50,411 nt of DNA from Chromatiales bacterium (GTDB lineage Bacteria > Pseudomonadota > Gammaproteobacteria > Chromatiales > Chromatiaceae). How positions within the stretch are numbered: the first letter of the stretch is position 1; every line of letters starts with the position of its first letter. This document shows positions 448-15,828 of the stretch, one piece after another. The notes below the pieces were generated by a model. The model had not been told where the DNA came from and did no database searches. It saw only the letters and a program-made list of their open reading frames with translations. The stretch spans positions 1-50,411 of the forward strand of contig JAKSBX010000101.1 of the NCBI GenBank assembly GCA_022360905.1. Reading direction: 5' to 3'. The translations under genes were made by a program, and so were the position numbers.

Positions 448-1194
448 ATGTTGAAGACTCGACAACTTTTCACGGCTCTGCTGTTAAGCCTGATGGCCAC
501 AAGCTTGACAGCCCAACAAACGGATCAAGGATTTACCCAAGCCAGACAGAGAATGGTACAGACCATTCAACGGGAAGTACGCCACACCAGTGACTACCTT
601 GAGAAGAAACACCTTGATGAACGAGTCATAAAAGCCCTACAAACGGTTCCGCGCCATCTGTTCGTACCTGACGCACAACGGGATTCAGCCTATGAAAACA
701 GACCCTTGCCGATCGGCTACGGACAGACCATTTCACAACCCTACATCGTCGCCATCATGACCGACCTGATCGCTCCCGAAGCGCATCACAAGGCCTTGGA
801 GATCGGTACCGGCTCCGGCTATCAGGCTGCGGTGATGTCGCGCCTTGTGAAGCAGGTGTTCTCCATGGAGATCGTGGAACCATTAGGCCGGCTTGCCAAC
901 GAACGCCTGCAGAAACTCGGCTACCGGAATATCGAAGTTGCCATCGAGGATGGCTATCACGGGTGGGCTTCAGAAGCGCCATTCGACATCATCATCGTGA
1001 CCGCCGCAGCCAGTCACATCCCTCCTCCACTGATCGAGCAGCTGAAGCCCGGCGGTAAAATGATCATACCTGTAGGCAGTCGTTTCATGACCCAGCAACT
1101 GCTGTTGGTGAATAAGGAGCAGCAGAATGAAGTGACAGTAAGGCAGGTTCTGCCGGTTCGATTCGTGCCGCTGATCAACAAGTCCGAGTTGTGA
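448..1194 (+). CDS. Exported protein-L-isoaspartate O-methyltransferase-like protein
   Basis: This gene encodes a 248-residue PCMT-family methyltransferase, which would repair isoaspartyl residues using S-adenosylmethionine. The family signature is present: a PLPIGYGQTISQP block near residues 87-99 and a SAM-binding glycine loop LEIGTGSGYQAAV near residues 117-129. Unlike the usual cytosolic Pcm of about 215 residues, it starts with a hydrophobic signal-like segment (residues about 7-22, ending near TAQQ), so the enzyme is probably exported or membrane-tethered. SAM supply outside the cytoplasm is unclear, so the true substrate is uncertain. A G-rich Shine-Dalgarno-like stretch precedes the ATG. 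The stop overlaps the GTG start of the next gene (GTGA), implying translational coupling. Confidence 0.85.
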   Translation: MLKTRQLFTALLLSLMATSLTAQQTDQGFTQARQRMVQTIQREVRHTSDYLEKKHLDERVIKALQTVPRHLFVPDAQRDSAYENRPLPIGYGQTISQPYIVAIMTDLIAPEAHHKALEIGTGSGYQAAVMSRLVKQVFSMEIVEPLGRLANERLQKLGYRNIEVAIEDGYHGWASEAPFDIIIVTAAASHIPPPLIEQLKPGGKMIIPVGSRFMTQQLLLVNKEQQNEVTVRQVLPVRFVPLINKSEL

Positions 1195-3632
1195 GCGACA
1201 GAAGTACGCCACCCTACATCTCACTGATGCTGCTCTCCGCATCGGCACTGGGTTATGAACTGTTGCTGATGCGCCTCTTTTCCATTATTCAGTGGCACCA
1301 TTTCGCCTACTTGGTGATCGCTCTGGCGCTACTTGGTTATGGTATCAGCGGCAGCCTGCTCTACCTCAGACCAGCCATCGTATTACGCCGATTCAGTCAA
1401 CTCTACAGCATCGCACTACTGCTGTTTGCCATAACCAGTATCAGCGGATTCATGCTCGCACAATCGATCAGCTTCAATATCGAAGAGTTGTTTTGGAATC
1501 CCGCCCAGACACTCAGACTGATTCTGATCTTCCTGCTGCTGGCGCTGCCTTTTGCCTTTGCCGCCTCGGCCATCTGCATGACCTTCATGCACTATCCGCG
1601 CAGCGATATCTCAAAGCTCTATGCCGCTGATCTGATCGGCGCCGGGTTCGGTGCGATCATCACTTTGATCGCCATGTATTTTGTCATGCCGCAACATTTG
1701 CTGATCGGCATAAGTCTGGCCGCTATGGTTGCAACGCTGATCGCGATTCAGGAGACAGGCACAAAGCACAAAACAGCCCTGCAACTGGTGACGGTTGGCA
1801 TTACAGGTTTTTTATTGGTGCTTACCCCTGATCTCAAACTGATCTATTCGCCATACAAATCACTGGCCCAGACACTCAACATCAAAGGCGCTACGGTCAT
1901 CGATCAACGGGCCAGCCCACTGGGTCACCTGAGCCTGGTGGTCAATCCCCAGGTACCTTTTCGGCATGCACCGGGACTGAGCCTGCTGAATACCGCTGAG
2001 CCCCTTGAGCAGATCGGCCTGTTCATCGATGGGGACAACATGAGTGCCATCACCCGTTATCCGCAACGTATCGAGGAGCTGAGTTATCTTGACCAGACAA
2101 CCTCGGCACTGGCCTACCATCTGAAAACACCTGACAAGTTACTGGTGATCGGCAGTGGTACAGGTACAGACCTGTTGCAGGCTCACTATCACCGGGTTAA
2201 CTCAATCGATGCGTTGGAACTCAACCCGCAGATCGTCGAACTGGTCAACCACGATTACCGACCCTTTGCCGGACCGGTCTACGACAACCCGTTCACTCGG
2301 CTCCATATCAAAGAGGCCAGGGACTATCTGCTGGAGAGCCGACAGCAATATGACCTGATCAAACTGTCACTGACCGACGGTGCCAGCGCCTCCTCATCCG
2401 GACTCTATGCACTCAATGAGAGCTATCTCTATACCCGTGAGGCGATGCAACTCTATCTTTCCAAACTGCGTCCGGACGGCATCCTCTCCATCACCCGTTG
2501 GATCAAGTTACCTCCCAGGGACAGCCTGAAACTTTTCGCGACGGCCTACCAGGCACTCGAATCCATGCATCATGATGAGATCGAAAAACGCCTGCTGATG
2601 ATTCGCAACTGGCAGACCAGCACTCTGCTGATCAAAAACGGCCTGTTTACCCAGAGCGAGCTGGAGAGAGCCGAGCAGTTCTGCCGCAGCCGATTGTTCG
2701 ACCAGGCATACCATCACCAGCTCAAAGCGGAGCAGAGCAATCGATACAACCGACTTAGCGAAGCCAGCTTCTATCAGGCAAACCGACAAATTGTCTCGGG
2801 AGAGCTGGATGCGCTGATCAACAACTATAAATTTGAACTGCAGCCCGCTAGCGACGATCGCCCCTATTTCAACCACTTCTTTAAATGGCAGAGCTTTTTC
2901 GAGGCGATGAAGCTGCGCGGCAGCGGCGGCATGCCACTGATTGAATGGGGCTATGTGGTGCTGCTGCTCAGTCTGGGAATCACCGGTCTGCTCAGTGCTC
3001 TGTTGATCCTGCTGCCTCTGCTGTTCAGGCCAAAAAGCACACCTCCGGCCGGTGGGAGCAGTTTGAATGGATCGGTTATCGGCTATTTCGCTGCCATCGG
3101 TCTGGCGTTTCTGCTGATCGAGATCGGGACCATTCAGAAATTCCAGCTCTTTCTGCATCACCCGATCTACGCCATCGCCGCATCCCTGACGGCCTTTTTA
3201 TGTTTCTCCGGCCTGGGCAGCTATCTAAGCGAACGGCTTTCACACAACCAGAACTACAAGCAGAGTGCCACTAAGGCGATACTCATGCTGTGTGCCATCG
3301 GCCTGGGTTATCTGCTGATACTCCCTGAGCTGTTCGATGCCCTTATCCATCTCCCCATGGCAACGAAAATCACTCTATCCATCCTGCTGATTGCACCGAT
3401 GGCAATCTGCATGGGGATGCCTTTTCCGCTGGCGATCGCTGCGTTGAAACAGACCCGTGCCGAGCAGATTCCCTGGGCCTGGGGTATCAATGGCTACGCT
3501 TCAGTGATCAGTGCCGGACTCTCCACAGTGATTGCCATAGAGTACGGCTTCAAAGCCGTTCTACTCTGCGCGATTCTGCTCTATCTGACAGCACTGATCA
3601 GCTTTCCCGACAAGCCTGCAAACCCTGCATAG
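1191..3632 (+). CDS. Multi-TM spermidine-synthase-like methyltransferase-fold protein
   Basis: The 813-residue protein has three parts. The first is an N-terminal bundle of hydrophobic helices (about residues 8-220). The second is a soluble Rossmann-type domain with a glycine loop VIGSGTGTDLL near residue 318 and an acidic LELNP strand end, as in spermidine synthases. The third is a C-terminal membrane bundle (about 580-805). Such proteins are annotated as spermidine synthase-like, but polyamine activity is rarely shown and I do not assign a substrate. The GTG start overlaps the stop of the upstream PCMT-like gene by four bases. Two SAM-type enzymes in one transcriptional unit, one of them exported, suggests a shared envelope role. 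That is inference. Confidence 0.8.
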   Translation: MSDRSTPPYISLMLLSASALGYELLLMRLFSIIQWHHFAYLVIALALLGYGISGSLLYLRPAIVLRRFSQLYSIALLLFAITSISGFMLAQSISFNIEELFWNPAQTLRLILIFLLLALPFAFAASAICMTFMHYPRSDISKLYAADLIGAGFGAIITLIAMYFVMPQHLLIGISLAAMVATLIAIQETGTKHKTALQLVTVGITGFLLVLTPDLKLIYSPYKSLAQTLNIKGATVIDQRASPLGHLSLVVNPQVPFRHAPGLSLLNTAEPLEQIGLFIDGDNMSAITRYPQRIEELSYLDQTTSALAYHLKTPDKLLVIGSGTGTDLLQAHYHRVNSIDALELNPQIVELVNHDYRPFAGPVYDNPFTRLHIKEARDYLLESRQQYDLIKLSLTDGASASSSGLYALNESYLYTREAMQLYLSKLRPDGILSITRWIKLPPRDSLKLFATAYQALESMHHDEIEKRLLMIRNWQTSTLLIKNGLFTQSELERAEQFCRSRLFDQAYHHQLKAEQSNRYNRLSEASFYQANRQIVSGELDALINNYKFELQPASDDRPYFNHFFKWQSFFEAMKLRGSGGMPLIEWGYVVLLLSLGITGLLSALLILLPLLFRPKSTPPAGGSSLNGSVIGYFAAIGLAFLLIEIGTIQKFQLFLHHPIYAIAASLTAFLCFSGLGSYLSERLSHNQNYKQSATKAILMLCAIGLGYLLILPELFDALIHLPMATKITLSILLIAPMAICMGMPFPLAIAALKQTRAEQIPWAWGINGYASVISAGLSTVIAIEYGFKAVLLCAILLYLTALISFPDKPANPA

Positions 3633-4546: not shown

Positions 4547-5584
4547 TTAAAATCTGGCCTCATACCTCATGTTGAAGATCAAATCCGGCACCATATCGGT
4601 GGTCATGTTCTCCCCCAAAGAGAGATCGATATGATCGCCACCTTCCAGGGGTATGGTTCCGCCGAAAGTCAGCATCACCGCTGAGCCGCCCAGTTGCTCC
4701 GAGCTGCTGTGATAAAAGGGCGTGTGAGCATCGACCTGGGCCTTCAGATCCAGCCACTGATAGACCCGCCAGTTGATACCCAGAGTACCGAACATCACAA
4801 ACTCCCGCTGGTCCTTCTCGAGCACCTCCGCCTTACCCATCAACAGCACGCCCATATGGCCATAACCGCCAAAGGGCCAGTTCGCCAGCAAATTGCGGTC
4901 AGAACCGGTAAGCCAGATCGACAGGTCAGGCGCACCGCTCCCCAGCAGTGACTCCTCATCCCCGGTAGGCAGCTTCAAACCCATATGCACGGAAGCTCTC
5001 ATCTCTTCATCCGCCAGGCTCAGTTCCCGGGAGAGCTGAAGCTGGATATCGCCGACACCACTGACCTTCTCCTGGATATCGACTTCAGTCACCCCATTCC
5101 GGATATAGATATAGCGCAACTGGTTCTGCTTCCAGTCGTCCCGGTCAGAATTGGAAAAACCAAACAGGTCGTGCCAGTTTTCGATCAGGCTGTCCAAGCC
5201 GCCACCCCGGTGGGAGAGGTAGGGCAGTTCGACACCGACCTGCCAACCTGAGCCGATCCCCCGCTGCCAGGTCAGGGCCACCCGGTAGGTCTCCCCATCC
5301 AATGTCACCTGCTCGTTCTCCTCGATTGTCTCCATCGAGGTGTTGGCCACATCCAGCTGCAGGCTGAGGCTGGTCTGTTGATCACCGAGTAGTTCGGAGG
5401 GGGTGGCCACCGGAAGACCATGCAACAGGGTGAAGGGATTCATATTGCGCACATGAAAAGGTTCGGGCTGGCTGGCCTGAGCCACCCCGATCGTTGCCAG
5501 GCAAAGCAGGACGATTGACCAAAAAATGATCAAAAACGAGGAATCCCCTTCCCAGGATCGACAGAACCGGTTAATTTTACCCAT
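4547..5584 (-). CDS. DUF3187-type outer membrane protein
   Basis: A signal sequence (hydrophobic stretch ending AQAS) is followed by a beta-rich protein with alternating polar and hydrophobic strands and a C-terminal phenylalanine, as in outer-membrane beta-barrels. The sequence, with a ...NMNPFTLLHGLP block after the signal, resembles DUF3187 family proteins, which have no established function. The start is uncertain: the frame extends upstream to an ATG at 5623 and a TTG at 5638, and none has a clear ribosome-binding site. I prefer the ATG at 5584 because it gives the shortest plausible leader. The gene converges with lgt and is divergent from the operon starting at 5980. Confidence 0.7.
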   Translation of the reverse strand: MGKINRFCRSWEGDSSFLIIFWSIVLLCLATIGVAQASQPEPFHVRNMNPFTLLHGLPVATPSELLGDQQTSLSLQLDVANTSMETIEENEQVTLDGETYRVALTWQRGIGSGWQVGVELPYLSHRGGGLDSLIENWHDLFGFSNSDRDDWKQNQLRYIYIRNGVTEVDIQEKVSGVGDIQLQLSRELSLADEEMRASVHMGLKLPTGDEESLLGSGAPDLSIWLTGSDRNLLANWPFGGYGHMGVLLMGKAEVLEKDQREFVMFGTLGINWRVYQWLDLKAQVDAHTPFYHSSSEQLGGSAVMLTFGGTIPLEGGDHIDLSLGENMTTDMVPDLIFNMRYEARF

Positions 5585-5638
5585 GAAGCAAAATCGAGAG
5601 ACAGTGTTTAAGCCGATCAACATGAAGGTAATCGACAA

Positions 5639-5979: not shown

Positions 5980-6507
5980 TTGAAGATCTTATTCCGCTAT
6001 CTATTTCTCCTCGCCTGTTGCCTCAGTCTGCCCTCCTGGGCCGCTGATCCTGCCCAGGCCGACCAGGGGCTGGACAAACAGGTCGAGAGCTTGAAAAAGG
6101 CAGTGATCGAGTTGAACCGTGAACTCTTCATCCTCGAGGAGGAGCTGCTGTTTCCGGGGAATACCCAGGTCTCGGTATTTCTCTCCCTGGACATCGGCAC
6201 CTACTTCAAACTCGATTCCGTCCAACTGCAGATCGATAACAAGGAGCTCTCCAACCACCTCTATACAGAGCGTGAACTGAAGGCGCTGCAACGGGGTGGT
6301 GTACAGCGGATCTATCTGGGAAACCTGAAAGCGGGCACTCATGAACTGGTTGCCTTCTTCACCGGTGTCGGGCCCAAAGGCCGGGATTATAAACGGGGCG
6401 CCACCGTCAGTTTCGAGAAAGGCCTGGGACCCAAATACCTGGAGCTCAAGATCGTCGATAGCGCGGCACTGCAGCAGCCGGATTTCGAGATCCGGGAGTG
6501 GGAGTGA
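5980..6507 (+). CDS. Small exported coiled-coil protein, first gene of Agl/Glt-like operon
   Basis: The 175-residue protein starts at a TTG. No in-frame ATG is available, and a GGGA sits about ten bases upstream. A signal peptide (residues about 1-21, ending SWAAD) is followed by a short coiled coil rich in Leu/Glu/Lys (about 30-57) and a beta-rich domain. I do not recognise a named family. Similar small proteins head comparable operons in other gammaproteobacteria and are sometimes called AraC regulators, which the exported, HTH-free sequence here does not support. It probably acts in the periplasm with the TPR proteins that follow five bases downstream. Confidence 0.75.
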   Translation: MKILFRYLFLLACCLSLPSWAADPAQADQGLDKQVESLKKAVIELNRELFILEEELLFPGNTQVSVFLSLDIGTYFKLDSVQLQIDNKELSNHLYTERELKALQRGGVQRIYLGNLKAGTHELVAFFTGVGPKGRDYKRGATVSFEKGLGPKYLELKIVDSAALQQPDFEIREWE

Positions 6508-6512
6508 GATAG

Positions 6513-8351
6513 GTGCCATACGGTCTGATACCCCGTCTGCTCCTCACCACCTGCCTGGCCCTCCCGATCACCGCAAGCGCGGAGATAAAACCGGGAGAGC
6601 CCCAGGAATTGCGTGATCTGCACTATGGTGAGGCACTCTTCCAGCTCTACCAGGAGGCCTATTTTCCAGCCATAGTACGTCTGCTCTCGGCGAGAAAGCA
6701 GGGGTTGATGAAGAACTATGCGGACGAACCAGAGCTGCTGCTTGGCGGTCTCTATCTGGCCTATGGCATGCCGGATACAGCGGAAAGCCTGTTCAACCGG
6801 GTGCTGAAGACAACCGCCACACCTGAAATTGAGAACAAAGCCTGGCTGCAGTTGGGCAAATCCCGTTACCGCCGGGGAGAGGATCCCGCCGCCGCCAAGG
6901 CGCTGAGTCAGATCGGTACTGAACAGCCGATCGATGCGAAAGATGAAAAACAGCACCTTGAAGGGCTGATCGCACTGAAACGCAACAAACCGACCGATGC
7001 CGTCGAGTCCTTGACGGAGATCTCCGGTGACAGCGAGTGGTCTCTGTATGGAGATTTCAACCGGGCATTGGCACTACTGCAGAGTGATCAATCGAGCCAA
7101 GCCCTGGAGATTCTCAAAGCCATCGGTGACGCTCATACGGAGCAGGATAGCGAGGAGATCAAAGCGATCAGGGACCGAGCGAATCTCACCCGGGGCTATC
7201 TGCTGCTGGAGGCGGAACAACCGCAACCCGCCAAGGACTCCCTGCAAAAAGTACGCCTCAAGGGGGCCTCAAGCAACCAGGCCCTGCTTGGGCTCGGCTG
7301 GGCATCGTTACAACAGGGCCAACAACAGCAGGCACTCGCCCCCTGGCAACTTCTGGCCGACCGCAACCCAAGTGATCCGGCGGTTCTCGAGGCCAAACTG
7401 GCGATACCCTATGTTTTGGCCCAGCTGAACGCCGAGCAACAATCCCTGGACGCCTATCAGAACGCCATCACCACCTACGATCAGACTCTGGGCTCGGTGG
7501 ATCAGATCATTCAGCAGATCAATCAGGGGGGCTTCCCCGACAGCCTGATGGTGGAAAACCGGGAAGATCAGCAGCAACTGCACACGCTACTGCCCTTTCT
7601 GTTGACCGGTAACCAGTTTCAGGAGCGATTCCAGGACTACCAGGATCTGCTGGAACTGGAGAAAAATCTGCAGGAGTGGCAGACCAAGATTACCGCCTAT
7701 CTCACCATGCTCGACAACCAGCAGCAGACCTACAAGAAACAGCTTCCCCGGGTGGAAGCCTTTCTCAGGGGCGATAAACTGAATCAGCTGCAGGAGCAGC
7801 ACACTGCGCTGGAGGCACACTACAACCAGGCGGTGTCAGAAGAAGAGCCGGCATTTATTCTCGCGACAGGTGAGGAGAAGAAGCTGATCGAACGTCTGCA
7901 GCGTATCGACACCCTGATCAGCCAATCCGCCTCCCCCGAACAGTTTCAAGTACAACGGGAGATCGCCCAACTGATGGAGGGGATCCTGATCTGGCGAACC
8001 GTTACGGAACACCCGGCCCGGGTTTGGAATCTGAAAAAACAGATGAAGGCACTGACCCGCAACATCGAATCGGTGAAAGTCCAACAGACAGAGCTGGCCG
8101 CTTCAAGAGAGCAGGCAGAGAACCGCTTCGACAACCTATCTGGACGCATAGACCGCCTGCAGGAGAACATTCCCGAATTGCTGGAGCAGGTCACAGCACT
8201 GCGCAGGCAACAGGCTAAACGACTTCAGGAGATGGCATTGGCCAGGCTGGAACAACGCAAAACACTGGTTAACAACTACCTGATCCAGGCGCGTTTCGGG
8301 GTGGCCAGTCTGCTCGATATCAGTACGGACAGAGGGGTACAGCCGCAGTGA
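6513..8351 (+). CDS. Exported TPR and coiled-coil protein of Agl/Glt-like operon
   Basis: A GTG start with GGGAG eight bases upstream gives a 612-residue protein. It has a signal peptide (ending ITASAE), tetratricopeptide-like helical pairs over roughly residues 30-300, and a long Gln/Leu/Glu-rich coiled coil over about 375-590. It is expected in the periplasm as a scaffold or adaptor. Its stop overlaps the GTG of the next gene (GTGA), so the two are translationally coupled. The role is inferred from the operon: TPR proteins, an ExbB-like and two ExbD-like subunits and an AgmX/PglI-like transducer, the same kinds of parts as the Myxococcus Glt machinery. Confidence 0.8.
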   Translation: MPYGLIPRLLLTTCLALPITASAEIKPGEPQELRDLHYGEALFQLYQEAYFPAIVRLLSARKQGLMKNYADEPELLLGGLYLAYGMPDTAESLFNRVLKTTATPEIENKAWLQLGKSRYRRGEDPAAAKALSQIGTEQPIDAKDEKQHLEGLIALKRNKPTDAVESLTEISGDSEWSLYGDFNRALALLQSDQSSQALEILKAIGDAHTEQDSEEIKAIRDRANLTRGYLLLEAEQPQPAKDSLQKVRLKGASSNQALLGLGWASLQQGQQQQALAPWQLLADRNPSDPAVLEAKLAIPYVLAQLNAEQQSLDAYQNAITTYDQTLGSVDQIIQQINQGGFPDSLMVENREDQQQLHTLLPFLLTGNQFQERFQDYQDLLELEKNLQEWQTKITAYLTMLDNQQQTYKKQLPRVEAFLRGDKLNQLQEQHTALEAHYNQAVSEEEPAFILATGEEKKLIERLQRIDTLISQSASPEQFQVQREIAQLMEGILIWRTVTEHPARVWNLKKQMKALTRNIESVKVQQTELAASREQAENRFDNLSGRIDRLQENIPELLEQVTALRRQQAKRLQEMALARLEQRKTLVNNYLIQARFGVASLLDISTDRGVQPQ

Positions 8352-11176
8352 AACCCGCTCTCTATCTCGGCCTGTTGAGTCTGACGGCCTACGGCTGCTC
8401 CTCCCCGGTATTGAAAGGGGGAGGACCCACCGAGGCAACCCTGGCGGATCTGGAGACAGAACCGGTCAAGATTGAACAGAGTGCCATCGCCCCGTCTGAG
8501 CGGGATGAGGTGATCGAAAACTATCGGGCCCTGCTGAAACTCAAGCCGGATCAACGTCTGCACAGTGAAGCCACCCGTCGTCTCGCCGATCTGGAACTGG
8601 AACGCAGTGAGACCAAGCTGCTGAGTTCGGATGAGCCTGCACCAAGCAGCGAAGAGCTGAGTCAGTCGATCGAACTCTATCAGGGATTGCTGGAAAACGA
8701 TCCCGACTACAACGCCAGTGATCTGGTGCTCTATCAATTGGCCAGAGCCTATGAATTACAGGGTGAGATGTCGGCGATGATGCAGACACTGGACACCCTG
8801 ATCAGAAAATACCCGCAAAGCGAACACTGGCAGGAAGCCCGTTTCAGACAGGGTGAGCGTTTCTTTGTTGAGCAGCGGTTCAGCAATGCGGAGCAGGCTT
8901 ATGGGGACATCCTCAAACAGCAGCAGCAGACTCCCTACTACGACCGCTCCCTGTTCAAGCATGGCTGGTCACTCTTCAAGCAGCGCAAGGTGGAACAGGG
9001 CCTCGACTCCTTCACCCAGCTGCTCGACAGAAACCTGGGTGACACACAGGTCATCGATACCAGCAAACTCTCACCCGCCGACCAGGAGTTGTTGAAAGAG
9101 ACCCTCAGGGTCATCAGCCTGACCTTTTCCGAACTGGGCGGAGCACAACGGATAAGCCAGTACTTCGATCGCCAGGGTCATCGCAACTACGAATATATGA
9201 TCTACCAGGGTCTGGGCAACCTCTATCTGAAACAAGAGCGGATCCAGGATGCAGCGGATGCCTATCAGGCCTTCGTCAACCTGAACCCGGCCCACCCCCA
9301 ATCCCCAAGATTGTCGGTGGAAGTGGTGGATATCTACACCAAGAACGGTTTTCCCGCTAAAGCCATCGAGAGCAAAAAATCCTTTACGCAACACTATGCC
9401 GTTGCCGGTGACGCCTGGCAAAAACTCTCAGCGGAGGATCAGAGCTGGTTGAGTGAACAGTTGCGGGTCTACCTCAAAGAGCTGGCGGAATACCACCACG
9501 CCCTGGCGCAGAAGAACCGCAACAAAAAGAGTAAGGCGATCACCGCCGAACAGGCCAAACAGGGTCAACAAGCGGCCCATTGGTACCGGCTCTATCTGGA
9601 TAATTTTCCCACAGACCCGAAGGCGGGCAATATCAGTTTCCTGCTGGGCGAGCTGCTGTTTGAGCTGAAAAACTACCCGCAAGCGGTAAACGCCTACGAA
9701 CAGAGCGCCTACCAGCTACCCAGCCATGACAAACGGGCGGAAGCGGGTTATGCCGCCCTGCTCGCCTATGCGGCGCAACAGAAACAGCTCAGTGAAGATC
9801 CCGCTGACGCCTGGCGAAAGCAGGGTGTCGAGAGCGCCCTGAAGTTTTGCGATACCTTTCCACAGGATTCCCGTCGTGCCAGGGTGCTGACCGAGGCGGC
9901 CGATCAGCTGCTCGATCTGAAGGATCTGGGACGCGCCCGGGGGGCTGCCCTCCAGGTGGCCAATCTGAAACCGGCCGCCGAGAAAAAACTGCGCCGCACC
10001 GCCTGGATCATCGCCGCCCATGCCGCCTTTGAGCAGCAGGATTTCAAGGCGGCCGAACAAGCCTATCAACAGGCGCTTGCACTGACCTCCAGCAAAGACA
10101 AACAGCGCGGCAAACTCGAAGAACGATTGGCGGCCAGCATCTATCAACAGGGATCGGCGCAACGATCGAAAGGGGATCATGGTGGTGCGGCCAAACAGTT
10201 TCTGCGTATCGCTGCACTGGCCCCGGCTTCATCCATCCTCGCAACAGCGGAATACGATGCCGCCGCCAGCCTGATTGCGGCCGGTGACTGGGCCGGCGCA
10301 GTGACCATTCTCGAGGCCTACAAGAAGCGCTACCCGAAAAGTGAACTGATCCCCGAAGTGGACAGCAAACTGGCGCTAGCCTACATGGAGTCCGGAGAGT
10401 CCCTGAAGGCCGCCTCTCAACTCGCCCTGATCTCAAAACAGAGCGACGATAAACAGCTGCAGCGTGAAGCCGGCTGGCAGGCTGCCGAGCTGTATGACAA
10501 AGCGGGCAAAAACAAGCAGGCCATCAGTGCCTATAAAAGCTATGTAAAGCGTTTTCCCAATCCCTACGACCCGGCCCTTGAGGCAAGACAGCGACTGGTT
10601 GAACTCTATGCAAAGAGTGGCGAATGGGGCAAACGGGAATGGTGGATGAAGCAGATCATCAAAGTCGACGCCAAAGCCGGAAAACAACGCACCGAGCGAA
10701 GCCGCTATCTGGCGGCCACCGCCTCGATCCAGCTGGCCGATCCGTCGCGACGCGCATTCCGCAAGGTAAAACTCAAGGCACCGATTGAAAAGAGTCTGAA
10801 ATCGAAGAAAAGCAAGATGCAGGCAGCGATCAACGCCTACAAGAAAGCCGCCGAATACGGGGTGGCTGAGGTGACCACCGAGGCTACCCATCGAATCGGC
10901 GAAATCTACCAGCAGTTCGGTGCCGCGTTGATGTCATCCGAACGTCCCAAAGGGCTGAATGAGGAAGAGCTCGAACAGTATGAGATCCTCTTGGAAGAGC
11001 AGGCCTACCCCTTCGAAGAGAAGGCCATCACCCTCTATGAGTCGAATATCGAAAGAGCGCCGCAAGGCATCTATGACGATTGGGTGAAAAAGAGTTTTGC
11101 AGAACTTGCCAAGCTGATTCCTGGCCGATATGCCAAGCAGGAAAAGTGGGAGGGGTGGATCGATGCAATCAATTAA
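8348..11176 (+). CDS. Large TPR lipoprotein of Agl/Glt-like operon
   Basis: This is a 942-residue protein from a GTG start. A short hydrophobic leader ends in a lipobox-like AYGC (Cys at residue 17), so it should be lipidated and probably placed in the outer membrane. Nearly all of the mature part is helical TPR-type repeat, with motifs such as YQLARAYELQG and AYQAFVNLNPAHP. It resembles in size and make-up the large TPR proteins (GltD/AgmU-like) of the Myxococcus gliding apparatus, but I cannot show orthology. It overlaps both neighbours by a few bases in a tightly packed operon. Confidence 0.8.
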   Translation: MKPALYLGLLSLTAYGCSSPVLKGGGPTEATLADLETEPVKIEQSAIAPSERDEVIENYRALLKLKPDQRLHSEATRRLADLELERSETKLLSSDEPAPSSEELSQSIELYQGLLENDPDYNASDLVLYQLARAYELQGEMSAMMQTLDTLIRKYPQSEHWQEARFRQGERFFVEQRFSNAEQAYGDILKQQQQTPYYDRSLFKHGWSLFKQRKVEQGLDSFTQLLDRNLGDTQVIDTSKLSPADQELLKETLRVISLTFSELGGAQRISQYFDRQGHRNYEYMIYQGLGNLYLKQERIQDAADAYQAFVNLNPAHPQSPRLSVEVVDIYTKNGFPAKAIESKKSFTQHYAVAGDAWQKLSAEDQSWLSEQLRVYLKELAEYHHALAQKNRNKKSKAITAEQAKQGQQAAHWYRLYLDNFPTDPKAGNISFLLGELLFELKNYPQAVNAYEQSAYQLPSHDKRAEAGYAALLAYAAQQKQLSEDPADAWRKQGVESALKFCDTFPQDSRRARVLTEAADQLLDLKDLGRARGAALQVANLKPAAEKKLRRTAWIIAAHAAFEQQDFKAAEQAYQQALALTSSKDKQRGKLEERLAASIYQQGSAQRSKGDHGGAAKQFLRIAALAPASSILATAEYDAAASLIAAGDWAGAVTILEAYKKRYPKSELIPEVDSKLALAYMESGESLKAASQLALISKQSDDKQLQREAGWQAAELYDKAGKNKQAISAYKSYVKRFPNPYDPALEARQRLVELYAKSGEWGKREWWMKQIIKVDAKAGKQRTERSRYLAATASIQLADPSRRAFRKVKLKAPIEKSLKSKKSKMQAAINAYKKAAEYGVAEVTTEATHRIGEIYQQFGAALMSSERPKGLNEEELEQYEILLEEQAYPFEEKAITLYESNIERAPQGIYDDWVKKSFAELAKLIPGRYAKQEKWEGWIDAIN

Positions 11177-11780
11177 TAGCAGGCTGACTGTGCTTGGATT
11201 GATTCTGCTGACAGTCGGCTGCAGCAGCATGACCACACCACAGCAACAGAGTGATGATGGCAACACAGCCACGGTTGCGACCGCTCCGCCAGCCAGTGAA
11301 AGCAAAGATCCGAAACTGACCAAGGCGCTTCAGTCGATCCATCGACTTTACAAGAAAAACAGACTCAAGCAGGCCAAGGATGAACTTCAGGTACTGATCA
11401 AAGAGCACCCGCAACAGACTGCCCCGCATATCGACCTGGGTATCATCCAGCTCGATGAAGCGACGCCACAGGCCGCAGAGCAATCCTTTCATGCCGCCCT
11501 GGCCATCGATGGGCAGAGTTCAACGGCGCACAATCTGCTTGGGGTTGCACTGAGGATGCAGGGCAAATTCAAACAGGCGGAACAGGCCTATCAGGCCGCC
11601 CTGAAACATCAGCCAGACTATCTGCTTGCCCATCGTAATCTTGGCATTCTTTACGATCTCTATCTGGCAAAACCAGAGCAGGCTTTGCAGCACTATCAGC
11701 AGTATCAAACCATGCTGGGCAGTAAAGACAAAGAGATAGAGAACTGGATCATCGACTTGCAACGTCGGGTCGGTAAATAG
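11163..11780 (+). CDS. TPR lipoprotein, AglT/GltE-like
   Basis: The start is set at the ATG at 11163 because a strong GGGAGGGG lies just upstream. A longer frame from 11130 would overlap the previous gene by 47 bases. The 205-residue product has a lipoprotein signal ending LTVGC and about three to four TPR units over residues 60-180 (for example AHNLLGVALRMQGKFKQAE). Short TPR lipoproteins next to ExbB/ExbD genes occur in the Myxococcus gliding cluster (AglT/GltE). I suggest that analogy from context and size only. Confidence 0.8.
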   Translation: MQSINSRLTVLGLILLTVGCSSMTTPQQQSDDGNTATVATAPPASESKDPKLTKALQSIHRLYKKNRLKQAKDELQVLIKEHPQQTAPHIDLGIIQLDEATPQAAEQSFHAALAIDGQSSTAHNLLGVALRMQGKFKQAEQAYQAALKHQPDYLLAHRNLGILYDLYLAKPEQALQHYQQYQTMLGSKDKEIENWIIDLQRRVGK

Positions 11781-11791
11781 AGGTGACCGGG

Positions 11792-12079
11792 ATGCTGAAC
11801 AGAAAACATTCAAGCTTGATCGCTCTGCTGCTGAGCCTGCTGATGCTCAGCTCCTGGAGCTGCTTTGCAGAACAGCGCCTCGACCTGGAAGGCACAGCGA
11901 TTTTCGGAAACAAGGAGTCGCCCAATGTGCTCTATGTGGTGCCTTGGCGGTCCGCAAAACGATTAACCGGGATGATGCCACCGGAAACCGGTCGGCGGGA
12001 TGAGTTACTCGCTCCGTTGGACCGTGATGTATTTCGCAGACAGATCGATTGGTATCAACAATATGGTGAAAAGCCCTAA
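11792..12079 (+). CDS. Small exported protein of Agl/Glt-like operon
   Basis: A 95-residue product starts at the ATG at 11792, with GAGGTG upstream. A GTG nine bases earlier is an alternative. It has a signal peptide (hydrophobic residues about 9-23, then SCFAEQ) and a short mature part with VLYVVPWRSAKR and a charged C-terminus. I do not recognise a family. The mature region (about 65 residues) is of the type seen in small partners of envelope machines. A weak hairpin (GACCTG/CAGGTC, 12128-12143) in the gap before the ExbB-like gene may tune downstream expression. Confidence 0.7.
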   Translation: MLNRKHSSLIALLLSLLMLSSWSCFAEQRLDLEGTAIFGNKESPNVLYVVPWRSAKRLTGMMPPETGRRDELLAPLDRDVFRRQIDWYQQYGEKP

Positions 12080-12177
12080 AGATTTTGACTGCGAACGCCC
12101 TATGGCAAACAACCCTGATTTTGTTATGACCTGTTATCAGGTCTTATAAACCTCGTCGAATCATAACGGAGAACCCA

Positions 12178-12828
12178 ATGGAACTCATCGACACAATCAT
12201 CCGTTTCTTTCAGGAAGGCGGACTCTTCATGTACCCGATACTGCTGATCTTTGCCGGGGGTCTTGCCATCGCCATAGAGCGCTGGATCTACCTGACCATG
12301 GCAACAGGCAGTAACAAGCGCACCTGGAAGAAGGTTCTGCCCTATCTGAATGACGGGGATTTCAAGTCGGCCATGGAGACGGCAAACAAATCGAAGACCG
12401 CAATCGGCACCATGCTTACCTATGGCCTGGCAAGGGCACGCACAGCGCGCCGCCGGGATGATGTGGAGGTCGCCATGGAAGAGGGCCTGATGGAAGCCAT
12501 CCCACGCATGGAGAAACGCACTCACTATCTGAGCACCCTGGCCAATATCGCCACCCTGCTCGGACTGCTGGGTACCATCATCGGTCTGATCCAGGCCTTT
12601 ACCGCCGTCTCCAATGCGGATCCGGCTGAGAAGGCCGACCTGCTCTCCGCCAGTATTTCGGTGGCCATGAACACCACCGCCTTCGGCCTGATGGCAGCGA
12701 TTCCGCTACTGCTGGTCTACGCCCTGCTGCAGAGTAAAACCACGGCGATCGTCGACAGCCTGGAGATGGCCTCCGTGAAATTCCTCAACATCTTCAACGA
12801 GAAGGCCTACTCCAGGAGCAAGGCATGA
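12178..12828 (+). CDS. MotA/TolQ/ExbB-like proton channel protein (AglR-like)
   Basis: The 216-residue inner-membrane protein has three hydrophobic helices: about residues 15-35, 122-145 (LATLLGLLGTIIGLIQAF-type), and 158-182 (MNTTAFGLMAAIPLLLVY). A cytoplasmic loop lies between the first two, which is the standard ExbB/TolQ layout. This family forms the pentameric stator around an ExbD/TolR dimer and converts proton-motive force into movement of a transducer. It overlaps the next gene by ATGA. Two ExbD-like genes rather than one follow, as in the AglR-Q-S motor of Myxococcus. Confidence 0.92.
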   Translation: MELIDTIIRFFQEGGLFMYPILLIFAGGLAIAIERWIYLTMATGSNKRTWKKVLPYLNDGDFKSAMETANKSKTAIGTMLTYGLARARTARRRDDVEVAMEEGLMEAIPRMEKRTHYLSTLANIATLLGLLGTIIGLIQAFTAVSNADPAEKADLLSASISVAMNTTAFGLMAAIPLLLVYALLQSKTTAIVDSLEMASVKFLNIFNEKAYSRSKA

Positions 12829-13343
12829 GAGGCCGGTTTCGCCACCATCACAAAGAAGCGGAACTGAATATCACCGCTTTTCTAAACCTGATGGTGATCC
12901 TGATCCCTTTTCTGCTGATCACGGCGGCGTTTTCCCGCTTTTCCATTATTGAACTTTATCTGCCACCGGCCAGTGAAGGCACGTTGAAACAGATCAAAGA
13001 GCTTCAACTGGAAGTCATCATTCGAAAAGCGAGTCTGGAAGTTGCCGATCGACAGGGAGGATTGATCCGTCGTATCCCGAATAACGCAGAAGGATATGAC
13101 GTCAAGGCACTGAATGAACTGCTGGTACAGATCAAAGTCCGTTTTCAGGACAAGCGCAGTGTGTTCATTCTCTCTGAACCGGAAACCAACTACGAAACCA
13201 TGGTTCAAGTCATGGATGCTGTACGCATGACTGAAAATGTCGAGTCCGGATCGGTGGTCCAATATGAGCTCTTTCCAGAGATCTCTCTGGGAGACGCACC
13301 ACCCTCCCAAGCTCCTAAAATGGATGAAGGTAACGCCTCATGA
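12825..13343 (+). CDS. ExbD/TolR-like protein with Asn at the ion-carrying position
   Basis: The 172-residue protein has one N-terminal membrane helix (about residues 16-38) and a periplasmic domain, as in ExbD/TolR. In ExbD and TolR a membrane aspartate at the start of the helix carries protons. Here the aligned residue is asparagine 21 (codon AAC, 12885-12887), in a FLNLMVILIPFLL context. Its sister gene immediately downstream keeps the aspartate. It may be a structural partner in a mixed ExbD dimer. Start and stop overlap both neighbours by four bases (ATGA). Confidence 0.88.
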   Translation: MRGRFRHHHKEAELNITAFLNLMVILIPFLLITAAFSRFSIIELYLPPASEGTLKQIKELQLEVIIRKASLEVADRQGGLIRRIPNNAEGYDVKALNELLVQIKVRFQDKRSVFILSEPETNYETMVQVMDAVRMTENVESGSVVQYELFPEISLGDAPPSQAPKMDEGNAS

Positions 13344-13852
13344 AGATGTCGCGTCGTGCGAAACGCATGGATCGCCACCACCGAAGAAACAAAGGATCAG
13401 CGGTACTGAATCTGGTCTCGCTGATGGATATCTTCACCATCCTGGTGTTCTTTCTGCTGGTCAATTCCGGCGAAGTCCAGGTATTGCCCAATGCCAAGGC
13501 CCTCAGCCTGCCCGAATCACTGGCCGATGTGAAACCCAAAGAGAACCTGGTGGTGATGGTCAATCAGCGAGAGATACTGGTACAGGGTCATCGGGTCATC
13601 GATCTCTCCCTGCCACTGCCTGAAGGCAACCTGCTGCCGGCCCTGCAGGAAGAGCTGCAGCGTCATGCCGAGCGTTCCAAACGCAGCAGTATTGAACCTT
13701 TCAAAGGGGCGATCACCATCATGGGTGATAAAGGCATTCCCTACGCCCTGCTGAAACGGGTGATGGCAACCTGTGCGCAATCCGAGTATCCCCGTGTCTC
13801 CCTGGCTGTGCTCAGAAAAGCTGAGCAAAACAAGGGAGGGCAGACCCTGTGA
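13340..13852 (+). CDS. ExbD/TolR-like protein with conserved Asp
   Basis: A second ExbD/TolR-like subunit of 170 residues. It has a basic N-terminus, one membrane helix (about residues 22-42) and a periplasmic domain. The ion-carrying aspartate is present at residue 30 (SLMDIFTILVFFLL, codon GAT at 13427-13429). It begins at an ATGA overlap with the Asn-variant ExbD and its own TGA overlaps the GTG of the TonB-like gene. The pair would make an asymmetric stator core with the ExbB-like protein. This is inference from sequence. Confidence 0.9.
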   Translation: MKMSRRAKRMDRHHRRNKGSAVLNLVSLMDIFTILVFFLLVNSGEVQVLPNAKALSLPESLADVKPKENLVVMVNQREILVQGHRVIDLSLPLPEGNLLPALQEELQRHAERSKRSSIEPFKGAITIMGDKGIPYALLKRVMATCAQSEYPRVSLAVLRKAEQNKGGQTL

Positions 13853-14820
13853 GAGTCTCATACCGACATTCCGAGCATCTGCCGTGGAACAATACCAGTG
13901 CCGATGAACGCCGCTTTCATCTGATCATCGTATCCACTCTGTTTATCGCGATGATCCTGGGGCTCTTGGTACCCATAGTCCAGCTACCGGAAAAGGAGCG
14001 CTTCAAGAAGCAGACCCTGCCACCCCGCCTGGCACGGCTGATCCTGGAACAGAAACAGGCACCACCGCCAAAACCTAAAAAGATCGTCAAAAAAGAGCTG
14101 CCCAAACCGAAACCTAAAAAAGAGAAGAAGCCGGAGGTCAAGAAAAAACCCGAGCCGAAAAAGAAACCGGTTGAGCAGGTCGCGAAGAAGAAACCCTCTC
14201 CGGAAGCGGCGCGAAAAAAAGCCGCCAGTTCCGGTCTGCTGGCATTCGCCGATCAACTCGCCGACCTGCGGGAAGACCCGGTGGTATCGAGTGTTCGTGG
14301 TGCACAAAAACTCTCCAAAGAGGGCCGCAAGACCTACACCAGCCAACGCTCGATCATCTCTTCCGGTGCAACCAAAGGCAGTGGCGGTATCAATACCGCC
14401 GCGCTCAGTCGTGATACAGGTGGCAGTGGTCTGAGTAACCGCGCCACCACTCAGGTTGAGAGTAAGGACATCACCCAGGGCAGCGAGGCCGCGGCGAACA
14501 ATCGCGGTGCCAGGGGTAAAGATCACAAAGGCAACCGTACCAGAGAAGAGATTCAACTGGTGTTTGACCAGAACAAGGGGGCGGTCTATGCCCTTTACAA
14601 TCGCGCATTGCGTAAAGATCCTTCGTTACGCGGCAAAGTCGTCCTGGAGTTGACCATCACCCCAGCGGGTAAGGTGAGCAAGTGTCGGATCATCTCCTCG
14701 GAACTGAACAATCCGAAGCTGGAACGCAAGCTGGTCTCACGCATCAAACTGTTCAAATTTCCCAATAAGGATGTAGATACCGCGGTTGTCTCCTACCCGA
14801 TCGACTTTCTGCCATCCTAA
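13849..14820 (+). CDS. TonB-like energy transducer with AgmX/PglI-type C-terminus
   Basis: The 323-residue protein (GTG start) has a membrane anchor at about residues 23-44. A long Lys/Pro-rich stretch over about 65-125 is typical of TonB-type proteins that span the periplasm. A Gly/Ser/Thr-rich linker follows, and then a C-terminal domain of about 90 residues (from IQLVFDQNKGAVYALYNRAL). That domain looks like the AgmX/PglI C-terminal domain of Myxococcus gliding proteins rather than classical TonB. It is the last gene of the nine-gene operon and probably carries force from the ExbB/ExbD motor to the TPR lipoproteins. Confidence 0.87.
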   Translation: MRVSYRHSEHLPWNNTSADERRFHLIIVSTLFIAMILGLLVPIVQLPEKERFKKQTLPPRLARLILEQKQAPPPKPKKIVKKELPKPKPKKEKKPEVKKKPEPKKKPVEQVAKKKPSPEAARKKAASSGLLAFADQLADLREDPVVSSVRGAQKLSKEGRKTYTSQRSIISSGATKGSGGINTAALSRDTGGSGLSNRATTQVESKDITQGSEAAANNRGARGKDHKGNRTREEIQLVFDQNKGAVYALYNRALRKDPSLRGKVVLELTITPAGKVSKCRIISSELNNPKLERKLVSRIKLFKFPNKDVDTAVVSYPIDFLPS

Positions 14821-14853: not shown

Positions 14854-15828
14854 ATGATAAAGAGAGCATCGGGCCTGCTTCTGCTGTTGCTGCTGTTACC
14901 GGCCTTGGGCCGGGCTGAATGGCTCAGTGATCAGGCCAGCGTTATGGGAACCCGTATAAATGTAGAGCTCTGGCATGAAGACCGGGCACTGGGTGAGCTG
15001 GCGATTGCCACTGTGATCGATGAGTTCAAACGCCTCGATGAAAAACTGAGCCCCTACAAAACCGACAGTGAACTCACACTGGTGAACCGGATGGCGGCTG
15101 AAGTGGCGGTCGATATTTCCAGTGAGTTATTTCATCTACTGCAAGAGTCCCACAACTATGCAAAATTGACTCAGGGTGCCTTTGATATCACCTTTGCTTC
15201 GATCGGCCACCAGTATGACTACCGGACAGGCAAAAAACCCAACCAACAGAGCACTCGACAAGCCCTGCCGCTGATCGACTACCGACACATTCGACTCGAT
15301 GCAAAAACCCAGACAGTCCGCTTCCTGCGCAAGGGCGTACAGATCGACTTGGGGGGAATTGCCAAAGGTTATGCCGTCGACCGGGGTATTGCGCTGCTGC
15401 GTGAAAGAGCGATTGAGCATGCCTTGATCAGTGCCGGTGGTGATAGTCGATTAATTGGTGACCATCGAGGCAGGCCCTGGCATATCGGCATTCAGGCGCC
15501 CAGGAAAAAGGCGGCCATGGCGGCGGTGCTTCCCCTCGCCGATACCGCGATTTCAACCTCGGGTGACTATGAACGATATTTTGAAGCCGATGGCGTGAGG
15601 TATCACCACATCATCAGCCCGAAGACTGGGCACTCCGCAAAGAATGTTCAGAGCGTCACCATTCTCGGTCCAAACGCAACTCGCACAGACGCCCTGTCGA
15701 CCAGCATTTTCGTCTTGGGGGCGGAAGCAGGCATGGCCCTCATCGATTCACTCGACGATGTGGAGGCTGTCATCATCGACCGTGATGGACAGATGCTGAC
15801 CTCTGCAGGGCTGGACAGCTTCCACTAA
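14854..15828 (+). CDS. apbE: FAD:protein FMN transferase
   Basis: ApbE attaches FMN covalently to threonine of exported flavoproteins such as NqrB/NqrC and RnfD/RnfG. The 324-residue protein has a signal peptide (about residues 1-22) and the family motifs: DLGGIAKGYAVD near residue 167, ISAGGDSRLIG, STSGDYERYF, HHIISPKTG with the conserved histidines, and TRTDALSTSIFVLG with the catalytic-site aspartate. It lies 33 bases after the Agl/Glt-like operon in the same direction and may be co-transcribed. No clear flavoprotein target gene is in the window. Confidence 0.93.
   Translation: MIKRASGLLLLLLLLPALGRAEWLSDQASVMGTRINVELWHEDRALGELAIATVIDEFKRLDEKLSPYKTDSELTLVNRMAAEVAVDISSELFHLLQESHNYAKLTQGAFDITFASIGHQYDYRTGKKPNQQSTRQALPLIDYRHIRLDAKTQTVRFLRKGVQIDLGGIAKGYAVDRGIALLRERAIEHALISAGGDSRLIGDHRGRPWHIGIQAPRKKAAMAAVLPLADTAISTSGDYERYFEADGVRYHHIISPKTGHSAKNVQSVTILGPNATRTDALSTSIFVLGAEAGMALIDSLDDVEAVIIDRDGQMLTSAGLDSFH

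Follow-up and report, generated by a model that had tools for sequence, protein, structure and literature searches.

What does the gammaproteobacterial Agl-Glt core complex do? In 2011 this complex, comprising gltD, gltE, gltG, gltC, aglR, aglQ and aglS, was described from one genomic region of several Gammaproteobacteria, Marinobacter, Saccharophagus and Teredinibacter being named as carriers, with unknown function and with one extra gene that is absent from Myxococcales (PMC3169522). In Myxococcus, the corresponding machines combine one ExbB-like and two ExbD-like subunits (AglRQS), an AgmX-tail transducer and a tetratricopeptide repeat (TPR) scaffold (PMC4488436, PMC9389320), and the single AglRQS motor serves two outer parts, Glt and Nfs (PMC3858216). 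TolQRA-Pal and ExbBD-TonB are likewise proton-driven 5:2 motors whose transducers reach the outer membrane, but differ from the system described here, which has two unlike ExbD subunits, a large TPR scaffold and a transducer with no SHLS His. Here we analyzed a 50,411-nucleotide stretch (the window) of contig JAKSBX010000101.1, assembly GCA_022360905.1, from a Chromatiales bacterium. Nine open reading frames (ORFs) at positions 5980-14820, all on the plus strand, share with the complex of PMC3169522 their part list, single-operon organization, class and unknown function; that paper names seven genes plus one, whereas we count nine conserved genes. We propose, as an evenly balanced judgment, that the gammaproteobacterial Agl-Glt core complex is a proton-driven, envelope-spanning machine that has one proton site per ExbD pair and acts on a redox complex of the outer membrane. 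Computation shows the genes and the conservation of their order, an Asn/Asp asymmetry between the two ExbD-like subunits, and the co-occurrence and operon linkage with a redox gene block. The nine genes of the window are:

5980-6507, plus strand: g1, an exported protein of 175 amino acids (aa), with a predicted N-terminal helix and a beta-sandwich in an immunoglobulin/transthyretin-like arrangement
6513-8351, plus strand: g2, a 612-aa periplasmic TPR protein at the GltC position, a putative GltC by gene order only
8348-11176, plus strand: g3, a 942-aa TPR lipoprotein at the GltD position, matched by TPR profiles
11163-11780, plus strand: g4, a 216-aa TPR lipoprotein at the GltE position (the ORF opens at 11130; the start at 11163 is preferred because the lipobox comes after it)
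11783-12079, plus strand: g5, an exported 98-aa protein with the motif G-N-x-E-x-P-x(6)-P-W
12178-12828, plus strand: g6, an ExbB/TolQ-like proton-channel subunit at the AglR position (PF01618, 4.3e-28)
12825-13343, plus strand: g7, an ExbD-like subunit in which Asn21 (codon 12885-12887) replaces the proton-binding Asp
13340-13852, plus strand: g8, an ExbD-like subunit that keeps the Asp (Asp30, codon 13427-13429)
13849-14820, plus strand: g9, a transmembrane transducer at the GltG position, with a Pro/Lys-rich linker and an AgmX/PglI C-terminal domain

The initial annotation of the window read this operon as exported, TPR, ExbB-like and two ExbD-like proteins plus a transducer, and ORFs and profile searches bear out that list, which agrees with the published core complex; the related gammaproteobacterial clusters that it mentioned as lacking a known function are likewise those that PMC3169522 describes. 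TPR profiles match g2 to g4, MotA_ExbB matches g6, and ExbD matches g7 and g8 (2.4e-14 and 1.3e-15); lipoboxes are visible by eye in g3 and g4. The AgmX/PglI-type tail suggested for the transducer is recovered by myxo_SS_tail (NF033768) at 76.7 bits (cut-off 40), while Pfam TonB_C (PF03544) gives 20.1 bits, under its cut-off of 24.6, and TIGR01352 (tonB_Cterm) gives 28.5, just over its cut-off of 27.1; g9 thus has an AgmX tail rather than lying nearer to TonB without one. Matches to Glt-specific models fell short. The full-length GltG equivalog model reaches 47.9 bits of a required 650, and the GltE model reaches 45.2 of 225 on g4, tied with PilW at 46.2; both models were probably built on myxobacterial sequences. 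The best named match of g3 is the YbgF/CpoB TPR model (99.1 bits, cut-off 90.1), which we read as a general TPR match because five stretches of g3 match. The ExbB, TolQ, ExbD and TolR equivalog cut-offs are all undershot by wide margins, for example by TolQ at 63.1 against 221 and TolR at 31.4 and 23.4 against 127.3. For g2 and g3, the putative orthology to GltC and GltD is based on gene order and on the 2011 paper (PMC3169522). Profile searches assigned no family to g1 and found no Pfam or NCBIfam match for g5, whose structure model is poor (pLDDT 69). The description of the genes as overlapping is roughly right: five pairs overlap (g2/g3, g3/g4, g6/g7, g7/g8 and g8/g9), while g1/g2 and g4/g5 are spaced by 2-5 bases and g5/g6 by 98. 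To call the operon complete was too strong, as the candidate outer-membrane barrels lie on another contig, g7 lacks the Asp of AglQ and AglS, and the window genome has only one AgmX-tail protein over the cut-off. This draft genome (4.59 Mb, 288 contigs, 93% complete) has Candidatus Thiodiazotropha as its nearest named relatives, with transducers up to 95% identical, in a list that may omit records from the window's own genome; the bacterium is related to clam symbionts.

The core is widespread and its gene order is conserved far beyond chance. A g3 profile (A3, E up to 1e-40), searched over 369 Gammaproteobacteria, matched 88 genomes in 66 of 271 genera, and the core genomes are spread over 47 families. 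We read 116 loci, namely 100 stretches around g3 matches (not every match was taken), 15 loci of relatives and the window. A synteny comparison, as the initial annotation advised, finds the complete nine-gene set in the same order in 59 of 115 loci (window included; L021, without g3, was left out), and among the remaining 56 loci, 18 carry a flag for a contig or stretch end close by. Across the loci the identity of g3 falls to 29%. Of the 116 loci, 104 have a recognizable g5 and 94 a recognizable g1, so both are regular parts of the system and no artefacts of annotation. When g7 was searched across the phylum, 15 of 398 genomes gave a match, all in Gammaproteobacteria.

What distinguishes the two ExbD-like subunits? 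The transmembrane helix of g7 (ELNITAFLNLMVILIPFLL) carries Asn where ExbD, TolR and MotB carry the proton-binding Asp, whereas the helix of g8 (LVSLMDIFTILVFFLLV) keeps Asp; the Asn position was placed by eye against g8 and the control helices. Among 92 pairs, 15 of which are the window and its close kin, the g7 residue is Asn in 90, L117 having Asp and L135 Ser instead, and the g8 partner is Asp in all 92. Rows L086 and L098, labelled g8, are the ordinary TolR of motorless copies and stand outside the 92. The phylum search, whose 18 loci include six repeats of counted loci, the window or each other, added 12 pairs in which g7 has Asn in 11 and Ser in one (L322) and g8 has Asp in 12. As a control, Asp occurs in 34 of 34 other ExbD/TolR proteins (five from the window genome and 29 from other genomes; 30 read by pattern and four by eye), a set drawn from best-scoring matches that leans to ordinary members. 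All 83 g7 sequences (nine close kin and the two TolR rows dropped) form one clade, and L117 and L135 are nested on long branches within it, from which we conclude that Asn is probably ancestral in g7 of the sampled set.

In Myxococcus, both AglQ and AglS are described with a predicted Asp, in contrast to Asn21 of g7, and whether the two chains form homo- or heterodimers was not yet known in 2022 (PMC9389320). The AglQ mutation D28N abolishes proton conductance and movement (PMC3858216). Thus, a residue state that inactivates one Myxococcus subunit is the normal state of one subunit here, and either g7 or g8 may be the AglQ counterpart. A literature search limited to openly licensed papers found no natural Asn subunit in the ExbD family. 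If the heterodimer were obligate, just such a conserved pair with a single Asp would be expected; the pair therefore bears on the 2022 question for AglRQS-type motors and offers a natural test of the number of proton sites that a 5:2 motor needs.

The g9 transducer is conserved outside its tail at an N-terminal Trp, a DERRF-like stretch and the linker motif ARKKA-x-x-GLLAF-x-D-x-LADLR. TonB and TolA contain an SHLS motif with His (PMC12204202); the g9 column aligned to this His is His in only eight of 91 sequences, Arg in 46, Gln in 14 and Lys in 13. Because the His is not conserved, g9 is probably coupled to its motor otherwise than TonB and TolA.

The second line of evidence concerns the outer membrane. 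Clustering of neighbouring genes identified as recurrent same-strand upstream families a TlpA-type thioredoxin, DUF3570, ApbE and a barrel (OMP_myx_plus, 170.8 bits). In the window genome OMP_myx_plus and DUF3570 both lie on another contig, C157, in a block with the order HzsA-like, OMP1, OMP2, TlpA, DUF4266, DUF3570, in which several genes overlap. The HzsA-like protein has two CxxCH motifs (by eye) and the DUF4266 lipoprotein ends in CGCN. OMP1 is a barrel of 251 aa with an SH3 match under the cut-off and 42.6 bits to OMP_myx_plus (cut-off 60); OMP2, of 221 aa, scores 168.1 bits. The two are tandem paralogues, as both profiles converge on the same 112 ORFs, and at fused loci they stand before the gene at the GltC position. 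GltB (275 aa) and GltA (256 aa) are likewise paralogous OmpA-type barrels encoded in one operon before gltC, which stabilize each other and bind GltC (PMC4488436); the likeness is one of arrangement only. The block is present in 20 of 20 stretches chosen for barrel or DUF3570 matches, with TlpA undetected in two. In 24 of 100 core loci, from 24 genomes, DUF3570 immediately precedes the first core gene in the same orientation, at distances of -567 to +1241 bases; in 12 other genomes it is on the core contig within about 25 kb. Over the 369 genomes, OMP_myx_plus (over the cut-off) and the core occur together in 56, the barrel alone in none, the core alone in 32 and neither in 281 (Fisher 1e-43, kinship ignored); weaker barrel matches in 55 more genomes, many without the core, were left out of this count. 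The 56 genomes represent 30 families and each also has DUF3570. Similarly, DUF3570 and the core occur together in 73 genomes, DUF3570 alone in 22, the core alone in 15 and neither in 259 (7.6e-42, kinship ignored).

A further operon, F0-F2-F1, immediately precedes apbE and the core at some loci, while at others it is transcribed divergently from HzsA (L172, L174, L175, L177, L204, L214, L217 and L218). F0 has 432 aa; F2 has 891 aa, with Laminin_G_3 (LamG), CxxCH and a weak MtrC-like match; F1 has about 540-580 aa and a Tat-like start (by eye). F0, F1 and a further protein, F4, gave no Pfam match. We infer that the F-operon proteins are surface-exposed partners. F genes were considered for the window and rejected: a genome of the same genus (G350) has F0-F2-F1 upstream of lgt, and positions 448-3632 of the window hold other genes. 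Two side observations were made. At L241 (4195-4434) the DUF4266 lipoprotein encoded beside a thioredoxin has consecutive glycines and CGCN at its end, where a metal or thiol site is possible. At L138 (2166-5645, minus strand) a large multihaem cytochrome c (Cytochrome_C7, 1.2e-59) is encoded downstream of the core, with relatives in L136 and L087.

Directly following the core of the window is a gene for a flavin transferase, which the initial annotation did not list:

14854-15828, plus strand: ApbE, FAD:protein FMN transferase, starting 33 bases downstream of g9

Of the 116 loci, 32 have ApbE next to the core: it follows the core in 15 of Thiodiazotropha type and precedes it in 17 others. DUF3570, DUF4266, thioredoxin and ApbE occur all together in L165, L169 and L186; in the window genome the first three are on C157 and ApbE is in the window, and so not on one contig. 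Flavinylation clusters of these same four families have been described in PMC8238504, in a text without ExbB, gliding or TPR. The clusters found here differ in that an HzsA-like protein and two barrels stand alongside, and in that most core-linked DUF3570 proteins have S/T-S-A-S and not [ST]GA[ST]: of 46 aligned, 26 have SSAS, eight SGAS, six TSAS and six other residues. ApbE beside the core suggests flavin attachment, though most core-linked DUF3570 proteins depart from the usual site. A DUF3570 that is not core-linked, at L264, has SGAT twice. Flavinylation of g9 itself was considered and set aside; the linker of the window g9 has SGAT beside the ApbE gene, yet [ST]GA[ST] occurs in five of 92 g9 sequences (three of 30 loci with apbE and two of 62 without), which we attribute to chance.

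Two-copy genomes suggest that one motor may be shared. Eighteen genomes have two loci each; in 14 one locus has and the other lacks the ExbB gene, in three both have it, and in G076 both loci are cut. One of the 14 (G264) is cut by a contig end, which leaves one motor copy plus one motorless copy in 13 of 18. The motorless copies run from g1 to g3, g4 or g5 (L079, L082, L086, L092, L095, L098, L105, L109, L123, L129, L134, L145 and L074). The motorless copy has the DUF3570 block as its immediate neighbour in at least six of the 13, and by the same test the motor copy has it in none; in G206 and G128 the F operon and HzsA stand beside the motorless copy. By analogy, these pairs resemble AglRQS driving both Glt and Nfs.

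How might such a machine work? We propose that a ring of g6 encloses the unlike pair of g7 and g8, of which only g8 would carry a proton, so that each ExbD pair would have a single site where two are usual. Working as a lever or rotor powered by protons, the ring would act on g7-g8 and thereby pull or turn g9, whose AgmX/PglI tail would pass the movement to a periplasmic TPR scaffold of g2, g3 and g4 with g1 and g5 as adaptors. The scaffold would in turn engage the barrel pair OMP1/OMP2 encoded on C157, and work would be done on an outer-membrane redox complex of the HzsA-like protein, TlpA thioredoxin, DUF4266 CxC lipoprotein and DUF3570, matured in part by ApbE. Its most likely task would be the assembly, positioning or loading of this complex at the cell surface. 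The g7-g8 heterodimer in the pore, the force path and the redox role are what we infer. A bolder version, tentative and short of an even chance in our estimate, is that this is a natural 5:1:1 proton motor, an obligate heterodimer with one protonatable chain, driving an unrecognised system of about 16 genes (19 in some genomes) that operates from the inner membrane on a haem/thiol/flavin complex of the outer membrane. Such a motor would use five protons per turn, in 72-degree or limping steps, versus ten in 36-degree steps, and would run against the ten-fold symmetry held to be almost certainly universal in 5:2 motors (PMC9389320).

Several observations weigh against the proposed proton-driven machine acting on a redox complex. 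Its support is computed from sequence, and its interactions and rotation are predictions. The Asn is not absolute, given one D/D pair (L117) and two g7 with Ser (L135 and L322). Among the 88 core genomes, 32 have no OMP_myx_plus match over the cut-off and 15 no DUF3570, so some core complexes do without the redox block, and the Fisher test for barrel and core was computed without removing shared ancestry. The DUF3570 of the window genome has SSAS and not [ST]GA[ST], and a second full ApbE is encoded on contig C111, so that ApbE may serve other substrates. Finally, since the block adjoins the motorless copy in at least six of 13 two-copy genomes, the motor-bearing copy there may do something else.

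The same machine and outer-membrane link could operate with a pore formed by a g8 homodimer with two Asp residues, g7 being a non-motor plug, regulator or peptidoglycan anchor. Known ExbD, TolR and MotB motors do have two identical Asp-bearing chains (PMC9389320), and g8 alone keeps Asp in every pair read; yet a free subunit would need no pore helix, whereas the g7 helix is nearly unchanged, positions around the Asn included, and g7 always adjoins g8 in equal copy number, and we consider this arrangement rather unlikely. Alternatively, the core could be basal machinery that transports a lipid, a polysaccharide or a protein in the envelope, a role of this kind having been suggested in 2013 (PMC3858216), with the redox block a passenger of shared ancestry and not the target. 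The core genomes that lack the barrel or DUF3570 would fit this, and lineage relatedness inflates the Fisher value. We nevertheless find it doubtful, as none of the 281 genomes lacking the core has the barrel, 24 loci, each from a different genome, have the block joined to the upstream end of the core, and apbE adjoins the core from either side in different lineages.

The ExbB/ExbD-type motor, together with the weak TonB_C (20.1 bits) and borderline TIGR01352 (28.5 versus 27.1) scores of g9, might instead point to a Ton-like import motor that opens TonB-dependent receptors. We regard this as highly improbable: the equivalog cut-offs of that family are missed by wide margins, the SHLS His is not conserved (His in eight of 91, Arg in 46), and no receptor family is found among the 30 largest neighbour families, read by eye. 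Similarly, the shared core parts, the transducer tail and tandem barrels arranged like GltB-GltA recall the gliding motor of Myxococcus xanthus. GltG plus GltJ would, however, need two AgmX-tail proteins and the 93% complete genome has a single one over the cut-off; in the 2011 account, the core is argued to be insufficient by itself for motility (PMC3169522); and g7 has Asn, the state that abolishes AglQ function as D28N (PMC3858216), with either g7 or g8 as the possible AglQ counterpart. Further Glt proteins of the gliding machine were not identified here. The system is probably not a gliding motor, and a gliding role is of all these readings the one to which we give least credence.

The cluster, its relation to Agl-Glt (PMC3169522) and the flavinylation families (PMC8238504) were already known. 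The passages of PMC3169522 on the core complex do not mention the g7 Asn, a barrel/redox block or motorless copies, and the accounts of the Myxococcus Glt and Nfs machines in PMC4488436, PMC3858216 and PMC9389320 describe, in the parts that bear on them, no redox block. Our literature searches did not find the Asn/Asp pair, the tie between core and barrel/redox block or the one-motor, two-copy pattern in print. Since 2011 no job has been assigned to the core complex, and the barrel/redox linkage gives the first concrete partners to knock out.

Three minor features of the window remain. In nearly all g6 proteins the sequence AMNTTAFGL makes up the third transmembrane stretch, in which, as judged by eye, the Glu of E. 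coli ExbB is missing. Upstream of the core is one divergent gene:

4547-5638, minus strand: DUF3187 protein, the divergent neighbour of the core, retained beside it in Thiodiazotropha loci

Further upstream, positions 448-3632 encode two proteins named by eye: one is protein-methyltransferase-like, the other a membrane protein whose middle part resembles spermidine synthase.

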